A DNA stretch of 32,341 nucleotides from contig JADGBM010000029.1 in the NCBI GenBank assembly GCA_015231515.1, positions 1-32,341 of the forward strand, written 5' to 3'. The notes beneath the pieces are model-generated. The model did no database searches, was not told where the DNA came from, and worked only from the letters and a program-made list of their open reading frames with translations. The number at the start of each line of letters is the position of its first letter. Within the stretch, counting starts at the first letter, position 1. This document shows, one piece after another, positions 10,066-28,737 of the stretch. The position numbers were made by a program, and so were the translations under genes. Source of the stretch: Desulfobulbaceae bacterium. Its GTDB lineage: Bacteria > Desulfobacterota > Desulfobulbia > Desulfobulbales > VMSU01.

Positions 10066-12360
10066 TTACGTTGGCAGACGAACTTCTGCTGTAGTACCTG
10101 TTTCTGGTGAGGAAGTAAAGACAAGTGTGCCGCCATGCTCTTTAATAATTCCTGCTGAAACTGACAGACCTAAACCGGTGCCACCAGAGTTTCGCTTCGT
10201 AGTGAAGAAAGGGTCTGTCAGCTGTGTGATGGTCTCTTTCGGCATCCCGACACCTTCATCGTCAACGGAGATAATAATCGTTGCAGAATTTTTTTCAAAT
10301 GAAGAGGTGACCCGTATTGCCTGCTGCGAATCGGTAAGGGCCTCGCAGGAGTTTTGGATCAGGTTGATGATGACCTGTTCAAGGCGTTGTTTGTTGCCAT
10401 AAAATTGGGGACATTGAGGGCATAACTCGACATGAAAGGCGGATGTCGACTTTTTTACCAGATTATGGGTAAGGCGAATCGCCGTTTCGATGATTTTGTT
10501 AATATCAAGCAGTTCAGCGGCTGTTGGTTTGTCCTTTCGTGCGTAGTCTTTAAGGTCTTTAACAATGTTTTTAATTCTTTTGCCGCTGTCAATCAGTTCG
10601 CTGAAAAGTTGTGGGATCTGTAGTCGCATTTCGCTGTAGTCTAAACCAGCAACAATAAACTCACCATTTTCTCGATAGTACTGCTCCAGGATCGGGCTGA
10701 CATCCTGCCAGGCCTTTGTAAGCATGGGGGCATTGAGCATGGCGATACTGTTTGGGTTGTTTATCTCATGGGCCACCCCTGAAACCAGAAGCCCAAGGGA
10801 GCGCATCTTGTCGGCCTGCACAAGCTGCTGCCTGCGGAGTTCAGCCTCTTTTTCGCTCTGTTTTCGTTCTGAAATATCGCGAACAATCCAGATGGCGTGC
10901 CACTGTTTCTTGATCTGGGTGGCAGAAAGAGACAGTTCAATCGGGATGTCGCTGCCGTCGATTCTTTTTGCGAAAAGTTCTAAAATGTCAGATGGCGCAG
11001 CGGCATTTGTGTGTGAAAAATCTTTTGAATCAGAGAGGGTTTGTTGCTCGATGCGGGTTAATGAGAGGAGTTCGTGTACCGGTTGCCCCATCGCCTGATC
11101 TTCATTATAGCCAAACATGCGCTCTGCCGACTTGTTCCAGTAGGCAATATTGCCGCTGTTATCCATCATGATAATGGCATCTTGTGCTGATGATGTCAGT
11201 TTCCGGAACTTATTTTCGCTTTCCCGGAGCTGTTGTTCGGCCAACCGACTTGCCGAACGCGTTTGGAAGTAGTGTTGAGCCAGGATATTTAACTCGTCGG
11301 CCAGGACGGTGATTTCCTGGGGCCCGGGCCACTGAAAACGGACATTCTCATCATTCTTGAGTATTTTGTCGAGACCCTGCAGGATGTTTTTTTTGATATG
11401 GTCAATCCTGAAAGCGATAAAATTGGCAATGCAGAAAATAACAAACATGGTTGCCATAAGGACAATGGAGATATTGATAATCAACGATCGCCGCCATTTT
11501 TGTGCGGTTCCTTTGTCGATGATGATGCCGGCCCAGATGAGTGGTGCCGGTGAGTTGTCTGACATGATTGGCAACCATGAAATCGTGTGCTCCTCCGGTG
11601 TTTTCCAGATAAAGGGTCTGTTGTCGGAAAACTTGTGCTTAAGGGCGTCTGCATATTCGTAGGCGCTGATGTCTGTGAGGGAACTCTGGTTAGCTGGTGC
11701 TGTGGTTTGAAACGAAAGAGGAGTTGTGGTGTTACCGGCGGGGTTCAGCCAGAGCACATGGTCTTCAGCGGCCAGTAACGATATCTTTGCTTGCAAAAAG
11801 ATCGTGCCAATTGCATCGCCATTTTCAAGCACCGAATAATAAAAAATTATTTTTGTCTCATTTGATTCATGAGAGCTTTCTTGGTGCATGAAAATGCCGC
11901 TTGCTGAAAGTTTCTGTGAGGGTACTGGCAGATACTCAGGTGTTTTTGTAGTGCTGATAAACTGTCTGCTTTCCTCTGGGTTGCGCTCTAGAGTAGTTTT
12001 TCCGGTACCATTGACGGTGCAAAAGAAGAGGCCTTCTATCTCGATATTTTCACCGTACCACTGGTTGATTACCATTTCCATATTTAGAAGGGCTATAGGG
12101 GCGACCGGGGTTTCACTGTTTAGCTGACTGAAAAGTTCCTGGCTTTCGCGAAGGGCGGCTATGCGGTCGAGGTCTGTTGCAACTTTAGAAATTTTTTCAG
12201 AAAATGCCTGGCTGCTCAGCTTGGAACGTTTGCCGATGTTTTCCTGAAGGGACTCTTCGTGTCTATTAATGTGGTTTTGTAAGTTTATAGAAACCAGAAC
12301 CAGTAAGGGCAGGGTACCTATGGCAAGGATGGTGAAGAATATGATGCTTTTTAGTTTCAT
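10066..12360 (-). CDS. PAS-containing sensor histidine kinase
   Basis: A 764-residue membrane kinase. TM1 is about residues 6-27, followed by a large periplasmic region of about 265 residues, TM2 about 294-316 and a HAMP-like linker. A PAS domain spans about 385-500 (SAQDAIIMMDNSGNIAYWNKSAERMFGY is its start; WIVRDISERK is its end). HisKA has His531 (LLVSGVAHEINNPNS). HATPase has N666/N670, DEGVGMP at 701 and a GGTGLGLS lid. The active-site residues look complete and there is no receiver. The periplasmic region contains a Cys114 and an abundance of Ser/Thr, but I recognise no named sensor fold. The gene precedes the WYL regulator on the same strand. The start is plausible because TM1 begins within six residues, although no clear Shine-Dalgarno is present. 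Confidence 0.9.
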   Translation of the reverse strand: MKLKSIIFFTILAIGTLPLLVLVSINLQNHINRHEESLQENIGKRSKLSSQAFSEKISKVATDLDRIAALRESQELFSQLNSETPVAPIALLNMEMVINQWYGENIEIEGLFFCTVNGTGKTTLERNPEESRQFISTTKTPEYLPVPSQKLSASGIFMHQESSHESNETKIIFYYSVLENGDAIGTIFLQAKISLLAAEDHVLWLNPAGNTTTPLSFQTTAPANQSSLTDISAYEYADALKHKFSDNRPFIWKTPEEHTISWLPIMSDNSPAPLIWAGIIIDKGTAQKWRRSLIINISIVLMATMFVIFCIANFIAFRIDHIKKNILQGLDKILKNDENVRFQWPGPQEITVLADELNILAQHYFQTRSASRLAEQQLRESENKFRKLTSSAQDAIIMMDNSGNIAYWNKSAERMFGYNEDQAMGQPVHELLSLTRIEQQTLSDSKDFSHTNAAAPSDILELFAKRIDGSDIPIELSLSATQIKKQWHAIWIVRDISERKQSEKEAELRRQQLVQADKMRSLGLLVSGVAHEINNPNSIAMLNAPMLTKAWQDVSPILEQYYRENGEFIVAGLDYSEMRLQIPQLFSELIDSGKRIKNIVKDLKDYARKDKPTAAELLDINKIIETAIRLTHNLVKKSTSAFHVELCPQCPQFYGNKQRLEQVIINLIQNSCEALTDSQQAIRVTSSFEKNSATIIISVDDEGVGMPKETITQLTDPFFTTKRNSGGTGLGLSVSAGIIKEHGGTLVFTSSPETGTTAEVRLPT

Positions 12361-12561
12361 GGCGTCTTGGCTGGATGGGGTGCAAAAAAACTTGCGTCAA
12401 GAGAAGATTGGCATGAGCTCAAATCCCATACCGGCATGAGATGTAAACCATGTTTAGGTGATAATTGTCAAATAGATTTGCATGGGAACGGAAGCTGGCT
12501 GGCCGGTGCATTTATTTTTAAAAGTCCAATATATCAATATGTTATGAATTATTTATAGGGC

Positions 12562-12577
12562 TGGCATATCAATTGCT
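12562..12577 (+). promoter_or_regulatory. Possible sigma-54 promoter (weak)
   Basis: TGGCAT and ATTGCT are spaced with GG at 12563-12564 and GC at 12575-12576, exactly 10 nt apart as sigma-54 requires. It points toward the receiver and rhodanese genes, but it lies about 250 bp before the first start with an inverted repeat in between. It may be a chance match. Confidence 0.22.
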
Positions 12578-12633
12578 TTTAAGTGAAGTACATATTTAAT
12601 CGGTACAAAGATTTTCATTTTTGCATAAAGGGA

Positions 12634-12702
12634 AAAATCCCCCTTAATTCCCCTTCGAAGTCTCCTTCGTCGCTTATCTGCAGGGGTACTGAGGGGGATT
12701 TT
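12634..12702. repeat. Inverted repeat with 11-bp perfect arms (MITE/REP-like)
   Basis: AAAATCCCCCT at 12634-12644 is the exact reverse complement of AGGGGGATTTT at 12692-12702. A second nested pair, CCCCT (12650-12654) and AGGGG (12682-12686), lies inside, so the 69-bp unit can fold as a long hairpin. No coding capacity and no T-tract follow. It could be a small dispersed element or a transcript-stabilising hairpin. Confidence 0.55.
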
Positions 12703-12825
12703 ATGAAGGTTAGTAAAATACTAAGATGTGTCGTTTTTTTAATAAAGAGTTAAATCCAGAACATAATTTGCTCAGTACGGGAAATATGTGATTTTGAGGT
12801 CGGTCGGCCTCAAACGATATGGAAA

Positions 12826-13236
12826 ATGGTTCAACGAAAATTGAAAAAAGATCGGCAGGAAATACAACATATTTTGTTTGCTGAAAGTGAACATGGACTG
12901 GAAAGATCCATATCGCTTATGCTGAAAATGGCAAACTACAAGGTGACAGTTGTTACTGATTGTCTTGAGGCCTATGAAAAATTAGTTGAACTCGAGGGGG
13001 TTGGGGAGTTGCCGGAATTGCTTATTGTTGATTTTGGGAGAAACAAGGCTAACAGTGAGCGTTTTGTTGAAAGTCTTACCCAATCGAGGCTGTCGGTGCC
13101 GGTAATCATAATAGCTGAATATGGCGACGAGTGGATGGTGGCAGAGGGAGTTCTAGGCAAGTCCGGTGTGTTCTTGGCAAAGCCATTTGAGCCACAGGAA
13201 CTTATGTCAGCAGTTGAGAAATTATTAAGTCACTAA
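12826..13236 (+). CDS. Stand-alone receiver-like protein, degenerate
   Basis: A 136-residue single-domain CheY-like fold. Asp69 (LLIVDFG) sits at the phospho-acceptor position and Lys119 (LAKPFEP) at the conserved Lys position. Two features are unusual: the acidic pair is Glu20/Glu22 (FAESE) rather than Asp-Asp, and the switch Thr/Ser position appears to be Ala97 (IIIAEYG). This suggests a receiver with altered or lost phosphorylation switching. The N-terminus is extended by about 13 basic residues (MVQRKLKKDRQEI). The ribosome site is weak. It lies 97 bp upstream of the Sec-rhodanese gene on the same strand. Co-expression is possible, but a hairpin separates them. No output domain is present. 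Confidence 0.75.
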   Translation: MVQRKLKKDRQEIQHILFAESEHGLERSISLMLKMANYKVTVVTDCLEAYEKLVELEGVGELPELLIVDFGRNKANSERFVESLTQSRLSVPVIIIAEYGDEWMVAEGVLGKSGVFLAKPFEPQELMSAVEKLLSH

Positions 13237-13333: not shown

Positions 13334-14647
13334 ATGTTACAAATTCACTCAAGGAAGATTGTTGCGGCATTGGTTGCAATGGCACTATTTGCCGGTGGTC
13401 CGGTGCTTGGCAGTGCGGTTGCGTCAGAAGGTACAATGGCTGTGGAGGCCAAGAAAGAGCAAAACGTCTTTAAAGGTAAGATACAAGGGGTTTCCAAGAA
13501 GGCAAAAAGTATTGCTATTGAAGTTGGCAAAGGTGAAAGCGCCAAGGTAATGATGGTTCGGTTTACTGATGCTACAGTGGGGATGGAGTTTGCCGTAGAT
13601 GGTGATGCTGCAATTATCGCCTATGAAGTTGTTGGTAAGGATAAAGTCGCTACAGTGATCAAACCGAAATTGGCAGAACTGCCGGAAGGTGTTACTGAGA
13701 TGCACCCGGAAGAGTTGATGGAGCTGGTTGCGATGGGCCCGGAAAAAGGTAAGTATTTGCTGGTCGATTCACGGCCTGCGCCTCGATTTGCGGATGGACA
13801 TATAGCGAGTTCAGTCTCTATTCCAGTTGAGAAGATGAAGAAAGAAGGCGCGGCACTTATGCCTGCCGATAAGGATATTCAACTGATCTTCTATTGCGGA
13901 GGGCCTACCTGAGGTATGAGTACAACTTCCGCCGGTCTGGCGAAGAAACTCGGTTATACCAATATCAAAGTAATGCTCAAAGGCGTTCCTGGCTGGAAAA
14001 AAGCTAAGAACAAGGTTGTGGCCAGTGATGCTCACATTGAAAAAGGCAATATTATCCTTGTTGATGTCCGTCCTGCTGCTGAGGCTGCAAAAGGATTTAT
14101 CGATAGGGCTGTCAACATTCCTTTTGATGAGCTGGAAGATGCAAAAGATGATTTCCCTCTAAAGGCGCCGGTTGTGGTCTATGGTGATGATGCTGAGAAG
14201 GCCTATTCGATGATAGCAAAATGGGGCCTGAAAACTGTTGCACTGGTTGATGGTGGCCTTGAAGGGTACGTAAGCCGAGGGCATGCACTTAAATCAGGTG
14301 AACCAGATATTGATGTAAGCTGGGAGCGTAAACTTGGTGAGGGCGAGGTTACCTTAGATGAGTTTATTAAGGCATCGGAGGGTAAGGTTGCCGAGGCAAT
14401 GATCCTGGACGTCCGAACCACTGACGAGACAGCCAAGGGCCAGTATTCCAACTCTGTCGCGATTCCTTTAGATGAGTTGGAGGGGCGAATCGCAGAACTT
14501 TCCAAGGATAAAGAGTACTTGATTCACTGTTCAACTGGGGCAAGGGCTGAAATGGCTTATGCTATCATGAAAAAAGCTGGGATGAAGTCACGATGTCTCA
14601 TTGCCGATGTTGAATGCACTGCCCCGGGAGAGTGCTCGGCAGACTAA
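13334..14647 (+). CDS. Exported triple-rhodanese selenoprotein (in-frame TGA read as Sec193)
   Basis: Read through the TGA at 13910-13912, this is one 437-residue protein. Residues 1-31 are a signal peptide (cut near AVAS-EG), so it should act in the periplasm. Residues about 43-110 form a small beta-rich domain of unknown type. Rhodanese domain 1 (about 118-230) has a YLLVDSRPAPRFADGHI entry and the active loop FYCGGPT-U-GMS, where the TGA stands at the catalytic position of YCxGxxC-type rhodaneses. Domain 2 (about 231-320) lacks a catalytic Cys (VVYGDDAEKA). Domain 3 (about 335-425) has Cys399 (IHCSTGAR). The start is firm: AAAGGAGG lies 5 nt before ATG. Translation restart at ATG 13916 is unlikely, as its GAGG is only 1 nt away. 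Rhodaneses move sulfane sulfur, so the Sec probably handles persulfide-type chemistry (inference). A strong terminator follows at 14693. Confidence 0.88.
13910..13945 (+). promoter_or_regulatory. Bacterial SECIS element (UGA plus downstream hairpin)
   Basis: The recoded TGA is at 13910-13912. Thirteen nucleotides later CTTCCGCC (13926-13933) pairs with GGCGAAG (13939-13945), leaving one bulged C and a five-base loop GGTCT (13934-13938). The loop starts 21 nt after the TGA. A G-containing apical loop within roughly 16-37 nt of the UGA is what bacterial SelB recognises, and GGUCU is the loop core of the E. coli fdhF element. The hairpin lies within the coding frame, as bacterial SECIS elements do. 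Confidence 0.85.
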
Positions 14648-21929: not shown

Positions 21930-22742
21930 TTATACTGTCTTTTTGCCTAGGTTTGCCACACCCATCTGTCGGAGGGTTTCCAGACTGGCCCAGAGATCAT
22001 CTTCGGAGTGAGGTTCGAGCGTAATAAGCGGGTTGAGCCTGTTTGCCGCCAGGTAGTTGAAAAGGGCGGCAAAATCAAAAGAACCATGTCCAATTGCCAG
22101 ATGCGAGTCATGGGTGCCGGTATTGTCATGTAGATGTAAATGACCTAACCAGGGATTCATCTCGGGTAACCACTCCTGCCAGGTTGATTTGGCGAAGGCC
22201 AGCAGATGCCCTGTGTCAAGGCAGAATCGAGCCAACGGAGAGTTTAAGGACTCAAGCATTTTTTTGTGTTGGGTAGGATTGAACTCGTAGGTGTTTTCCA
22301 GGGCGACAGTTGTGCCACTTGCTGCAGCAATTTCAATAAGTTCATGCCAGGTCTGGCGTGCAGCAGCAAACCACTCGTTTTGTTTGTAGCCATGTTTGTT
22401 GGCCTCAAAGTTCAAATGACAAATAATGGCTTTGGGGTGAAAGATTTCAATAAGAGCAAATGCACTGCGCAATTTGGCTCTGGTCGCTGAGAGGATTTCC
22501 TTGTCGAGCGCTCCAGGTGCAAGATCAAAAAAAGGGGCATGCAGTGTGCAGCTTAGGTTGTTTTCTTCTAAGCGACGGGCAATAACCCCAAAATCAGAGT
22601 CAGACTGGTCATAGAGTACATCGCCTTCAAGGCCGATCTCTGGCTGAAGTTGGTGTTCGATGAATACATCGATGAGACCATCTTTCAACTTCATGAATGG
22701 GGCATTGATGAAGCAGCGGTCTGCTGGGATAGTAAATTTCAT
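21930..22742 (-). CDS. TIM-barrel sugar isomerase/AP endonuclease-like protein
   Basis: A 270-residue cytoplasmic protein of the xylose isomerase-like TIM-barrel superfamily. Metal-ligand-type motifs at strand ends are visible: CTLHAPFFDLAPG (about residue 60), KAIICHLNF (about 104), VALENTYEF (Glu about 148), FCLDTGHLLAF (about 173), GHLHLHDNTGTHDSHLAIG (about 195) and ITLEPHS (Glu about 243). These suit a divalent-metal enzyme acting on a sugar phosphate or a DNA end; substrate cannot be told. It starts 14 bp after the Trm112-like gene and is followed after 19 bp by dnaE, so the three form an operon. It lacks a clear Shine-Dalgarno, which suggests coupling to the upstream gene. Confidence 0.82.
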   Translation of the reverse strand: MKFTIPADRCFINAPFMKLKDGLIDVFIEHQLQPEIGLEGDVLYDQSDSDFGVIARRLEENNLSCTLHAPFFDLAPGALDKEILSATRAKLRSAFALIEIFHPKAIICHLNFEANKHGYKQNEWFAAARQTWHELIEIAAASGTTVALENTYEFNPTQHKKMLESLNSPLARFCLDTGHLLAFAKSTWQEWLPEMNPWLGHLHLHDNTGTHDSHLAIGHGSFDFAALFNYLAANRLNPLITLEPHSEDDLWASLETLRQMGVANLGKKTV

Positions 22743-23632: not shown

Positions 23633-24568
23633 TCAGTTTGTTGGTTCCTTTAAAAGGTCGGTGCTGAGGTAGCGTTCTCCAGTGTCAGGGAGTATGACCA
23701 CGATGGTTTTTCCCCGGTTATCCTCTTTTTTGGCAGTTTCAAGAGCTGCAAATGCGGCTGCCCCTGATGAGATTCCGCACAAGATGCCTTCCTGCAAGGC
23801 CAACTGTTTTGCACAGTCGATTGCTTGTTCATTACTGACACAGAAAATTTCATCGATTATGGAGGTGTTTAAGACGTCTGGAATAAACCCTGCCCCGATT
23901 CCCTGGATTTTATGCGGGCCGGGTGTGCCGCCTGAAAGAACAGGGGAGTCTTTAGGCTCAACGGCGATGCTGCGAACTGTAGCTTTACGTCCTTTGATGA
24001 CTTCAGAAACACCAGTTATAGTGCCGCCAGTTCCGACACCGGCTATAAAGATATCGATGGTGCCGTCGGTGTCGCGCCAGATCTCCTCTGCAGTGGTCTG
24101 GCGGTGAATTTGGGGGTTGGCAGGATTGGAAAACTGATCCGGCATAAAGCTGTCTGGTATTTCATCGCAAAGTTCTTTGGCCTTGGCAATGGCCCCTTTC
24201 ATGCCTAAAGGGCCAGGAGTAAGCACTAGTTCGGCCCCAAAATGTTTGAGCAGCATACGTCTTTCAAGACTCATTGTCTCAGGCATTGTCAGAAGGAGTT
24301 TCAAACCCCGCACAGCACAGGTGAAGGCTAAGGCGATACCTGTGTTGCCGCTGGTTGGCTCAATAATAGTTGTTGAAGGCCTGATTTTTCCGGCACTAAC
24401 ACCAGCATCAATCATCGCCACACCAATTCTGTCTTTTACGCAAAACAATGGGTTGGCCGATTCAACCTTTGCCAGCACGGTGGCAACGCCATCCTTATTG
24501 ATGGCGTTGAGTTGAACAAGTGGAGAGTTGCCGATGGTTTTGGTGAGGTCTTGATAGATATTTTTCAT
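23633..24568 (-). CDS. cysK: Cysteine synthase (O-acetylserine sulfhydrylase)
   Basis: A PLP enzyme that joins sulfide and O-acetylserine to give cysteine. The 311-residue length is normal. The PLP Lys is Lys45 in [11 protein letters not shown]; Cys43 replaces the more usual Ser of NPxxSVKDR, a small oddity. The substrate loop PTSGNTG is at 71-77, with [11 protein letters not shown], the [11 protein letters not shown] active-site loop and a CGISSGAAA segment. The start ATG 24568 is 2 nt after the cysE stop, with AGGGGGA 7 nt upstream, so the two are coupled and may form the cysteine synthase complex. It is followed by the receiver gene after 125 bp. Confidence 0.95.
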
Positions 24569-24570
24569 GA

Positions 24571-25554
24571 TTAATCCCCCTTGTCACTTGATTTTGAAAT
24601 GTTGTTGCCCACAAAGTTTAAATCCGGGCGCTTCAGTAAAACTTTGGTGTCCACAGGAACACTCTCTGTGAGCCAGATATTGCCGCCAATAACTGAGCGG
24701 GCGCCAATTGTGGTCTGACCACCGAGTATTGTCGTGTTGGCATAGATGATAACTTCATCTTCAATGGTAGGGTGACGTTTCTGGTTGCGAAACCGGTCGC
24801 CGGCATCTCGTGGTAAAGAGAGGGCGCCGAGAGTTACACCTTGATACAGTCTGACCCGACTGCCAATTTCAGTTGTCTCGCCAATAACGATACCGGTACC
24901 GTGGTCAATAAAAAAGCTATCGCCAATGGTGGCACCAGGGTGTATGTCGATACCAGTCAGGCTATGGGCGTGTTCCGTCATAATTCGTGGTAGTACGGGG
25001 ACTGAAAGTGTGTGGAGGGCATGCGCTATTCGGTAAATTGTTATTGCCAAGAGCCCTGGGTAGCTGAAAATAATCTCATCGGGACTTTGGGCGGCAGGGT
25101 CGCCCTCCAGGGCAGCTTTGATGTCTGTGGACAGAAGTTTTTCGATCTGGGGCAGTTCGGTGATAAACTGCATAGAGATTTCATGACCGCGAACTCGGCA
25201 ATGAGTACACGATTTTTTTGATCGGAAGCACTCATGCTGCATGGCAAGCACAATTTGTTTGCTCAGATTTGTATAGAGCTCTGTGAGCTCCTGACCAATA
25301 ACATACTCTATGCTGTTGGCATTGATTGTTGCATCAGTAAAATAGCCGGGAAAAAGGATGCGACGGGTCTGGTGAATAATTTGAACTACTGAGTCATGTG
25401 AGGGTAGCGGTACAGGGCCTGCGTGTTCAGAACTCTCTTTGCTCTCCCAGGACTTGACAAGACGCGCAACAGTTTTGGGTATTTTATCGGAAAACAGCCG
25501 GATCTGTTCCTCTTCGTCGATACATTGAAAGTTAGCCTGGAGTAGTTCATCCAT
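24571..25554 (-). CDS. cysE: Serine O-acetyltransferase (left-handed beta-helix type)
   Basis: It makes O-acetylserine from serine and acetyl-CoA for CysK. The 327-residue protein has a long helical N-terminus (about 1-200) of the type seen in the larger SAT variants of deltaproteobacteria. The hexapeptide-repeat domain is about 200-310: [20 protein letters not shown], then [14 protein letters not shown] and [11 protein letters not shown]. The catalytic His and the Gly-rich turns are present. It starts 84 bp after metW and ends 2 nt before cysK, giving a cysE-cysK pair. Naming as cysE is by family; this larger SAT could be called by another symbol. Confidence 0.9.
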
Positions 25555-25638
25555 TGTTCTGCCTCGATATCTGGTAACATTGTTAAATGTAGGTTGATCT
25601 TCTCTGGGATGCCATGGGGCATAAAGCGCCAGGCCTCT

Positions 25639-26253
25639 CTATCCTGTGTAAGAACTATCTCTGCCGATCAGGAAAATCCCGTATGTAGCTCGCAGTTCCG
25701 GGAGAAATCGAACAATAGTCCCCTCCCTGTCGTCATTTTGGGTGTTAATTGCGACCTGCTGAAGAATTGAAAACCCGAAACTTTTTGAAAATTCGATGAA
25801 ATCATTAATCGTGATAACACGAATGTTTGGAGAGTTATACCAACTATAGGGGAGCTGGCTGGTCTGTGGTGCCCGGGCCTGGAAGAGCAGCTGCATGCGA
25901 CATCCCCAATGGCTGAAGTTTGGAAAACTCACCACCACCTTCTTGCCAATGCGCAGCAAGTCTTTAAGTAACGCCTCCGGTTGGTAGACCTGTTGAAGTG
26001 TCTGGCTTAAAACCACGTAATCAAAGGCCTGGTCAGCATAATCCTTGACCTCTTCATTAATGTCACCCTGCAAGGCAGTCAGGCCCTTCGCTATACATTT
26101 CTCGATGTTTGTCTCTTTAAAGTCAATACCGGTGCAAAGGACCTTTTTCTCTTTTTTAAGAAAATAAAGAAGATCACCCTCGCCACAGCCGAGATCTAGA
26201 ACCCTGGCTCCCGGCTCAATCCAGGAAGCAATTACCTCAAGGTCAAAGCGCAT
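25639..26253 (-). CDS. metW: Methionine biosynthesis protein MetW
   Basis: A 204-residue SAM-methyltransferase-fold protein. The SAM-binding loop is VLDLGCGEGDLLYFL (about residues 19-33), followed by GIDF and a LQGDINEEV segment. The MetW-specific central block includes DYVVLSQTLQQVYQPEALL and SFPNFSHWGCRMQLLF. It is found beside metX in many proteobacteria, where it supports homoserine acylation. The ATG at 26253 is 2 nt after the metX stop, so translation is coupled; GGAG sits about 11 nt upstream. Confidence 0.93.
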   Translation of the reverse strand: MRFDLEVIASWIEPGARVLDLGCGEGDLLYFLKKEKKVLCTGIDFKETNIEKCIAKGLTALQGDINEEVKDYADQAFDYVVLSQTLQQVYQPEALLKDLLRIGKKVVVSFPNFSHWGCRMQLLFQARAPQTSQLPYSWYNSPNIRVITINDFIEFSKSFGFSILQQVAINTQNDDREGTIVRFLPELRATYGIFLIGRDSSYTG

Positions 26254-26255
26254 AA

Positions 26256-27383
26256 TTAACAGAACTCCAGGGTCATTCGCTCGAGAAAACCCTTCAGCAG
26301 GGAGCTTAAACGCTGATTAGGTAAAAGGAATGCATCGTGCCCCCATTGTGCCTCAATTTCGCAGAAGCTGACATCGATACTGTGCTTTTTCATGCGTTTG
26401 ACCATAGCCTTGGATTTTCTGGTGGGATAGAGCCAGTCAGAGGTAAATGATACAACCAGGTATCTAGCCTTTGATTTTGCAAAGCAGGGGACACCATCCT
26501 TGGGTGGTAAGGTCATGTCAAAATAGTCGGCGGCCTTGGTTATGTAAAGAAATGAGTTTGCATCGAAACGTTCGACAAACTTGATGCCCTGGTAACGGAG
26601 ATAGCTTTCAACCTGGAAATCCGCATCAAAATTAAAGGATAAGTCTTTTTTGTTTTGCAGGCGGCGACCAAACTTATTTCGCATTGACTCGTCAGAGAGA
26701 TAGGTGATATGGCCTATCATTCTGGCAACGGCAAGGCCGAGATCCGGTTTTTTGCATCCGTAATAATCGCCATGGTTCCAGTTTGGGTCTGCCATTATCG
26801 ACTGTCTGGAGACTTCGTTAAAGGCGATGGCAAGTGCTGAGTGGCGCTGGGCGGTGGCTAAAGGCACAGCACTAAAAACCATCTCCGGATAACGAACACT
26901 CCACTCAAGAGTTTGCATGCCGCCGATTGACCCACCGATGACAGAGAGCAGCTTTGTGATGCCAAAAAAATCAATCAGCGCCTTCTGGGCTTTGACCATG
27001 TCGCCGATAGTAACAACCGGAAAAGTAAGGCCATAGGGCTTTTGGCTGGCATGGTTAACTGAGGATGGGCCTGTCGAGCCCATGCAACTGCCAATAATGT
27101 TTGTACAGATTACAAAGAATCTGTCGGTGTTGATAGCCTTGCCTGGACCGACCATGATCTCCCACCAGCCGGGTTTTTCGGAGTTCTCATGATAGCCGGC
27201 GGCATGGGCATCACCGGAAAGGGCATGGCATAACAGTATGGCATTGTTTTTCTCTGGATTTAGGGTGCCATATGTTTCATAGGCCAGAGTTACGTGTCCC
27301 AGAGTTTCACCGCTCTCAAGGGTGAGAGCGGTGGGCAGGGTGAAGAACTGTGTGTTGACCAGGCCAATCGATTCGGAAGTCAT
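26256..27383 (-). CDS. metX: Homoserine O-acetyltransferase
   Basis: An alpha/beta-hydrolase-fold enzyme that acetylates (or, in some members, succinylates) homoserine. The 375-residue protein has the nucleophile elbow GGSIGGMQ with Ser152, Asp316 (SFTSDWLYP) and His349 (QWGHDAFL) as a complete triad. The family blocks LCHALSGDAHAAG, GSCMGSTGPSS and PLATAQRHSALAIAFNE are present. The acyl preference cannot be read safely. It follows metY by 67 bp and is coupled to metW, in the usual metYXW order. Confidence 0.95.
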   Translation of the reverse strand: MTSESIGLVNTQFFTLPTALTLESGETLGHVTLAYETYGTLNPEKNNAILLCHALSGDAHAAGYHENSEKPGWWEIMVGPGKAINTDRFFVICTNIIGSCMGSTGPSSVNHASQKPYGLTFPVVTIGDMVKAQKALIDFFGITKLLSVIGGSIGGMQTLEWSVRYPEMVFSAVPLATAQRHSALAIAFNEVSRQSIMADPNWNHGDYYGCKKPDLGLAVARMIGHITYLSDESMRNKFGRRLQNKKDLSFNFDADFQVESYLRYQGIKFVERFDANSFLYITKAADYFDMTLPPKDGVPCFAKSKARYLVVSFTSDWLYPTRKSKAMVKRMKKHSIDVSFCEIEAQWGHDAFLLPNQRLSSLLKGFLERMTLEFC

Positions 27384-27450
27384 TTTTAGTGGGGTTCGAT
27401 TAAGTCAGAATATGAGCGTAATAGCAACAGGTGAACCGATACTCAGTTTA

Positions 27451-28737
27451 TTATGCCTTGCCAAGGGCCTGATCCAAGTCGGCAAGGATATCCTCAATGT
27501 TTTCGATTCCAACGGAAAGCCGAATAAAATCGTCAGTGACACCCGCTTCGGCCTGTTGTTCATGGCTGAGTTGCGAGTGCGTGGTACTGGCGGGGTGAAT
27601 GGCAAGAGATTTTGCATCGCCGACATTGGCCACGTGTGAAAATAGTCCAAGGGAATCGATAAATTTCTGGCCTGCACTAACCCCGCCGTTGATACCAAAG
27701 CCAACCATGCCGCCAAAGCCATTTTGCAGATATTTTTGAGCGAACTGGTAGGTGGGGTGGTCTGGCAGTCCCGGGTAGATAACCTTATTGACCTTTGGGT
27801 GGTTCTCAAGAAATCTGGCCACGGCTAAGGCATTTTCACTGTGCCGTTCCATACGCAGGGCAAGGGTTTCAAGCCCCTGCAAAAACAAAAAGGCATTAAA
27901 TGGACTCATGGTGGGCCCGAGATCACGTGTGAACCGAGATTTAAGTTTTACAATATAAGCCAACTGACCAAACTCTTTGAGGTAGTTTAGCCCTCCCCGG
28001 TATGAGGGGTCGTCTTCACTTAACTCGGGGAACTTACCGGTGCCCCAGTTAGTTTTGCCGGAGTCGACAACGAGGCCGCCGACGGATGTCCCGTGCCCGC
28101 ATATCCATTTAGTAGCAGAATGCATGATAATGTCGGCGCCATGGGAAAAGGGCTGGCACAGGTATGGAGTGGCAAAGGTGTTGTCGATAATCAATGGAAT
28201 GCCGGCTTCGTGGGCCGCACCTGAAACGCCTTCGATATCAAGAACATTTAATTTAGGGTTGCCAATGGTTTCTGCAAAGATAGCCTTGGTCTTGCCATCG
28301 ATCGCCTTGCTGAAATTTTCTGGTGTGGGATCGACAAACCGCACATTAATACCGAATTTTTTAGGAAATGTAAGATCAAATAAGGTGAACGTGCCGCCGT
28401 AAATGGTCTTGGAGGCAACTATGTTATCTCCACTGTTGGCAATCGTCAGGATCGACATAAAGGTGGCGGCTTGACCGGATGAGAGCGAAGCTGCTGCCAG
28501 TCCGCCTTCGAGATCGGTGATGCGTGTCTCAAGGGTCTCATAGGTTGGATTGGTAAAGCGGTTGTAGATCTCACCAGGGAAATCAGGCCCCTTTAGGGCA
28601 AAGAGATTGGCCGCCTGCTCAGTTGACGAAAAGGTGTAGGCGGTTGTTTGGTGAATCGGGACTGCGCGAGCTCTTGTAATAGGATCGGGTGTGTAGCCAC
28701 TGTGGAGTGCTTTTGTGTTAAAACCGTAGTTACCCAT
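27451..28737 (-). CDS. metY: O-acetylhomoserine sulfhydrylase (aminocarboxypropyltransferase)
   Basis: A PLP enzyme of the Cys/Met-metabolism family that makes homocysteine directly from O-acetylhomoserine and sulfide. The 428-residue length is typical of MetY rather than the shorter MetB/MetC. Lys210 ([11 protein letters not shown]) is the PLP lysine. The N-terminus ([27 protein letters not shown]) and the [16 protein letters not shown] block fit the family, as does the [29 protein letters not shown] end region. AGGAG lies 8 nt before the ATG at 28737, and a promoter is visible 45-75 bp upstream. It leads the metYXW-cysEK block. Confidence 0.95.

Follow-up and report, generated by a model that had tools for sequence, protein, structure and literature searches.

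In a contig from a Desulfobulbaceae bacterium, a short hairpin that begins 13 nt downstream of an in-frame TGA codon is almost certainly a bacterial SECIS element, to judge from the way in which it is conserved among relatives of the gene. The UGA at 13910-13912 would be read as selenocysteine, giving a 437-residue, probably exported protein with three rhodanese domains, and the gene that ordinary calling splits in two would be a single selenoprotein gene. The features concerned are as follows. Positions are those of the window, meaning the whole stretch of 32,341 nucleotides that was analysed (contig JADGBM010000029.1 of assembly GCA_015231515.1).

13334..14647, plus strand: putative selenoprotein gene of 437 codons (residues) when the TGA is read through
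13334..13912, plus strand: N-terminal piece, separate under ordinary gene calling, 192 amino acids
13916..14647, plus strand: C-terminal piece, from the ATG at 13916, separate under ordinary gene calling, 243 amino acids
13910..13912, plus strand: in-frame TGA, presumed selenocysteine residue 193; in homologues TGA in 110/130, Cys in 20/130
13926..13945, plus strand: full hairpin as first drawn, including one bulged C and, below the core, three pairs that are not conserved
13930..13942, plus strand: conserved core of the predicted SECIS element, CGCC-GGTCT-GGCG, with a 4-bp stem and a 5-nt loop
13934..13938, plus strand: apical loop GGTCT; its second base is G in every one of the 110 TGA loci and in all 34 sequences of alignment A3

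The first-pass annotation of this DNA described a stem starting 13 nt after the TGA and a GGTCT loop at 21 nt, and the sequence matches that description. The 5' arm CTTCCGCC occupies 13926-13933 and the 3' arm GGCGAAG occupies 13939-13945. Because the arms are 8 and 7 bases long, one base is bulged, either C13929 or C13930 depending on which of two drawings is chosen. The minimum free energy is -7.6 kcal/mol for 13920-13950 (31 nt) and -10.8 kcal/mol for 13910-13955, and measured against dinucleotide shuffles the folding energy is ordinary, with z between -0.38 and -1.30. A lax rule, consisting of a 4-bp stem, a G early in the loop and a loop 16-37 nt from the TGA, is passed after 768 of the 1298 TGAs on the two strands of the window. 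A GGTCT loop carried on at least four Watson-Crick pairs at SECIS distance is rare, following 2 of the 1298 window TGAs, as against 1 of 21443 in mononucleotide shuffles; the other window case, at 22694 on the plus strand, lies opposite the minus-strand gene 21930-22742 and is taken as chance. An Rfam scan of the window returned nothing over threshold. The hairpin alone is weak evidence, and it therefore fell to the homologues to decide. The SECIS reading of the first-pass annotation is supported, but the hairpin without its homologues would have been unconvincing.

Homologues were sought in 257 genomes of the order, and a match was found in 237, the weak matches including other rhodaneses. 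Among the at least 150 matches listed, 130 loci were read. The 20 listed matches left out were lower-scoring, partial or second copies; eight of them were without a stop, and two of these eight were later read as Cys (L241 and L246). A contig scan using the single protein as query found no relative, and a scan using the alignment did find relatives. Among the named relatives, the best are assemblies of Desulfurivibrionaceae and Desulfobulbaceae, and one homologue (L184) is carried by D. flagellatus (Desulfosediminicola). The codon at the TGA position is TGA in 110 of the 130 loci, TGC in 17 and TGT in 3, so that where it is not TGA it is always a cysteine codon.

The first-pass annotation had proposed looking at whether stem and loop are conserved in homologues that keep the TGA. 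This was done, and both the apical stem and an NGU loop start are present in 110 of 110. The apical pairs CGCC/GGCG form in all 110 TGA loci of the order, as against 3 of the 20 Cys loci. The longer stem originally drawn does not survive the comparison beyond its apical four pairs: the lower pairs 13928-13943, 13927-13944 and 13926-13945 form in 64, 48 and 22 of the 110 TGA loci, and the bulge had gone unmentioned. In alignment A2, which comprises 50 of the 100 distinct 45-nt TGA stretches, three pairs of the seven do not form in 22, 30 and 41 of the 50 rows. The lower stem and bulge are ruled out as part of the conserved element by this loss of pairing in TGA homologues. Since the lower pairs are poorly kept, the conserved core is CGCC-GGUCU-GGCG at 13930-13942, and these 13 nt are nearly invariant across the order.

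The conservation extends to synonymous positions. Third codon positions 13930, 13933, 13936, 13939 and 13942 carry 2.00, 1.87, 2.00, 1.87 and 2.00 bits in the 110 TGA loci, as against 0.07, 0.20, 0.19, 0.35 and 0.10 bits in the 20 Cys loci. Across the gene these five synonymous stem and loop sites rank 1 to 5 of 177 fourfold columns (1.84-2.00 bits), while the 169 fourfold columns outside residues 193-206 have a mean of 0.27 bits and a maximum of 1.17.

A wider sample covered 395 genomes of the phylum, of which 39 match at E 1e-40 or better, and 30 loci were taken. Of these, 29 could be read (23 TGA and 6 Cys), and L260, a C-terminal fragment, gave no residue. The 19 readable loci from outside the order comprise 18 with TGA and one with Cys. 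Beyond the order, 17 distinct TGA stretches were compared, and all 17 keep the four stem pairs. Compensatory changes in the stem, a further check that the first-pass annotation had proposed, were found here as G-C and A-U exchanges for C-G: in the 17 stretches G-C replaces C-G at the base of the stem (pair 13930-13942) in four, and the top pair is A-U in one and U-G in two. The 17 stretches were combined with 17 from the order, hand-chosen for variety, to give alignment A3 of 34 sequences. All 136 of its 136 cells are paired, 7 of them with both sides changed, and its covariation score of 0.218 compares with a shuffle mean of 0.046 and was reached by none of 500 shuffles. In a control with a sliding partner, covariation is at most 0.064. 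The loops vary (GGUCU, AGGUU, AGUGU, AGGAA, CGGCG, GGACU and others), and their second base is always G.

The relation between hairpin and selenocysteine can also be followed on a tree. On a quick tree of the 130 proteins, for which residue 193 was masked in the TGA rows and in no others, 13 changes between Sec and Cys are required; well-supported branches force 11 of them. In the 11 independent Sec/Cys contrasts, the intact stem tracks Sec in 8-10 of 11 and never in the reverse direction, and the stem together with the NGU loop tracks Sec in all 11, the NGU rule having been set after seeing the data. Two Cys loci illustrate the change: on the tree, L102 is next to the Sec locus L115 and L121 next to the Sec locus L128. 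They retain CGCCGGTCAGGC and CGCCGGTCTGGC respectively, followed by A instead of G, and this synonymous GCG-to-GCA difference breaks the basal pair. By its sequence, what these two loci hold is a SECIS remnant, and they would provide a clean comparative case of SECIS decay once Cys replaces Sec.

There are other ways of reading these observations. The TGA might be an ordinary stop, with the two frames forming separate, translationally coupled genes and translation restarting at the ATG at 13916. This ATG lies 3 nt after the TGA and is kept in 109 of the 110 TGA loci of the order, which speaks for a restart; however, the methionine is gone in more distant TGA homologues (L251, L253, L263 and others). 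A stop followed by a restart also leaves unexplained why the residue is otherwise always Cys, and why members with TGA, and no others, keep their synonymous sites 20-32 nt downstream fixed. We consider it very improbable. We attach hardly any probability to the view that the hairpin is a by-product of the conserved peptide SAGLAKK and codon habit, and has no function as RNA. It is true that the hairpin sits within a conserved stretch of protein and that its folding energy is close to the mean of the shuffles, but Cys homologues retain Ala200 and Ala203 while using all four third bases there. L102 and L121, which are Cys loci close to Sec relatives, lose the basal pair by a synonymous change, and the C-G to G-C exchange at pair 13930-13942 in the four phylum sequences likewise argues against it. 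Finally, a gene with one in-frame stop, in a draft genome, might suggest a pseudogene or a sequencing error, a prospect made negligible by the homologues: 110 of 130 loci in the order, and 18 of 19 from outside it, have TGA at this very codon.

Read as a SECIS element, the hairpin would act through its loop, which SelB with Sec-tRNA would bind while the UGA occupies the ribosomal A site. Insertion of Sec driven by SelB in this way is established biology, and we infer it here because the element is conserved and Sec genes are present. In the genome to which the window belongs, selB and selD both score above their cut-offs, selD having one in-frame TGA, and selA is split into two pieces that lie at contig ends. 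The selD gene carries a hairpin of its own, GTCCGAC-GGATCT-GTCGGAC, 13 nt after its TGA (L267, 1528-1563, contig C88), with -18.1 kcal/mol and z -1.87. It has the same 13-nt spacing as the window hairpin and a similar loop (GGATCT), in an independent gene. A covariance model (R1), searched against the same genome, gave E 1.2e-15 for the window site and 0.18 for the next hit. The match to the window site shows nothing new because the window row was in the model, and R1 does not pick up the selD hairpin.

No tRNA-Sec turned up in the draft assembly, which is 95% complete and comprises 225 contigs. The best hit of the Rfam tRNA-Sec model in it scores 45.9 bits, below the cut-off of 47, and this candidate is tRNA-Trp according to ARAGORN. 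ARAGORN found no tRNA-Sec at the selB and selA loci of the genome, and DNA queries with the tRNA-Sec of G252 and the region around that of G256 found none in the genome. All 12 relatives tested have a tRNA-Sec that scores above the cut-off. Given the 225 contigs and the split selA, the most likely cause of its absence here is a gap in the assembly.

The product is predicted to have an N-terminal signal-like stretch and a β domain, followed by three rhodanese domains. PF00581 is found in three stretches of the 437 residues, with 135.1 bits against the Pfam cut-off of 22.2. The predicted structure is confident (pLDDT 89.0): its first domain resembles 3tp9_B, the best PDB row (Z 17.6, rmsd 1.3, 103 aligned), and its third domain resembles 3nt6_A (Z 15.1, rmsd 1.9, 93 aligned). 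With a score above the Pfam cut-off and a predicted rhodanese fold, the protein is placed in the rhodanese family. Many homologues have a leader peptide that, judged by eye, is signal- or lipoprotein-like, and export of the window protein is probable on this reading.

No generally conserved neighbour gene was found in 80 named loci and the window, using a crude ORF clustering with many antisense ORFs; in the same clustering, a response regulator directly upstream clusters in 10 loci. In the window, the region just upstream of the gene (10066-13236) holds a PAS histidine kinase on the minus strand and a small response regulator on the plus strand. Further away, at 23633-28737 on the minus strand, is a run of genes for a PALP (cysteine-synthase-like) protein, a hexapeptide transferase, MetW, an alpha/beta hydrolase and a Cys/Met metabolism enzyme, which by domain content is a sulfur amino acid cluster.

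The motif at the TGA is C188-GGPT-U193-GMS (CGGPT-U-GMS). Counted from Cys188, Sec193 would be the fifth residue on, within the active-site loop of the first rhodanese domain, at the place of the Arg of CxxxxR in ordinary rhodaneses. The third rhodanese domain has a canonical-looking C399-STGAR. The CxxxxU beside Cys188 in the catalytic position, together with the signal- or lipoprotein-like leader, suggests a role in periplasmic sulfur transfer or thiol-selenol redox chemistry. In the periplasm of these bacteria, which metabolise sulfur, the Cys/Sec pair might accept, pass on or reduce sulfane sulfur; handling of periplasmic sulfane sulfur by Cys188/Sec193 is to our mind the most likely chemistry, with about an even chance of being right. 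It is a good deal more doubtful, though conceivable, that this is an order-wide selenoprotein in which Sec replaces the loop Arg and pairs with the catalytic Cys, so that the protein serves sulfur disproportionation as a sulfane-sulfur carrier or reductase dependent on selenium.

Two reports may bear on this idea. In the excerpt of PMC9751629 consulted, a rhodanese-like protein of Desulfolithobacter dissulfuricans GF1, GF1_13980, was detected only during thiosulfate disproportionation. The genome that we take as GF1 (G070) has a homologue of the window gene at 1,559,704-1,560,933, and the nearest other rhodanese genes lie at 1.646 and 1.308 Mb. The tag 13980 interpolates to near 1.55 Mb, assuming that the hydrogenase large subunit at 2,010,422-2,011,960 is GF1_18090 or GF1_18100. 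Judged solely by this interpolated map position, GF1_13980 may be the homologue of the window protein. In addition, an excerpt of PMC12142623 concerns a sulfurtransferase with three rhodanese domains that is secreted and belongs to a polysulfide reductase operon upregulated in disproportionation. It is worth adding that two other genes of G070, a second rhodanese-domain gene (C1, 813409-813660) and a NiFe hydrogenase gene (2017966-2018433), have one in-frame TGA each and are candidates for further Sec proteins. Overall, the results suggest that a rhodanese containing selenium is widespread in bacteria of the sulfur cycle, and its chemistry is directly testable.

It remains to compare hairpin and protein with known systems. 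In the open-licence literature no paper was found on this gene or hairpin in Desulfobulbales, and in the literature examined we found neither the near invariance of the 13-nt core described nor its decay in relatives with Cys. The likeness of the loop to that of E. coli fdhF, suggested in the first-pass annotation, is borne out: the 42-nt fdhF segment used for the comparison, with AGGTCT in its loop, is a 100% match to annotated fdhF, and both hairpins have a GGUCU loop core on a G+C stem. The fdhF SECIS has a bulged U below the apical stem. This is no conserved feature here, where the bulged base in the window is C, and base 13929 is C in 67, A in 33 and T in 10 of the 110 TGA loci. An fdhF-type SECIS with bulged U was accordingly rejected, base 13929 being variable and the lower pairs not kept.

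The agreement with the bacterial SECIS model claimed earlier was also found. According to the excerpt of PMC13188914 consulted, bSECIS elements have a loop of 3-9 nt, an upper stem of 4-16 bp, G at one or both of the first two positions of the loop, a loop 16-37 nt from the UGA and a minimum free energy at or below -7.5 kcal/mol. The window hairpin falls within these limits, with a 5-nt loop, four contiguous base pairs, GGTCT, 21 nt and -7.6 kcal/mol. Compared with the consensus it is at the short end, with only 4 bp conserved in a core that hardly varies across the order.

As regards the protein, the rhodanese region of TsoB (NF045694, a rhodanese/DsbD fusion-like double selenoprotein) matches window residues 126-234 with 53.6 bits, and the UxxxxU spacing of TsoB equals that of C188xxxxU193. 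The window protein is nevertheless not TsoB: the cut-off is 805 bits, no DsbD part is seen and there is only one Sec. ExtH, judged from its description, is of similar size, and the excerpt of its source does not call it a selenoprotein; homologues of the window protein in the phylum carry TGA. Excerpts of two further papers place the protein in a broader setting, PMC8318568 listing a rhodanese-like domain among marine Deltaproteobacteria selenoproteins, and PMC12013277 giving 43 and 40 known selenoprotein genes for two Desulfosediminicola species. The closest counterpart is in the excerpt of PMC13188914, which distinguishes five forms of rhodanese-like selenoprotein, form 1 having PF00581, the motif UxxS and the example WP_010941598.1, an example also given, without the motif, in the excerpt of PMC9312934. 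The window protein shares with form 1 both the PF00581 domains and U-G-M-S, which is UxxS, and its family is likely to be form 1, judged by domain and motif. Since rhodanese-like selenoproteins of this form have already been predicted in print, the kind of protein encoded here is already known.
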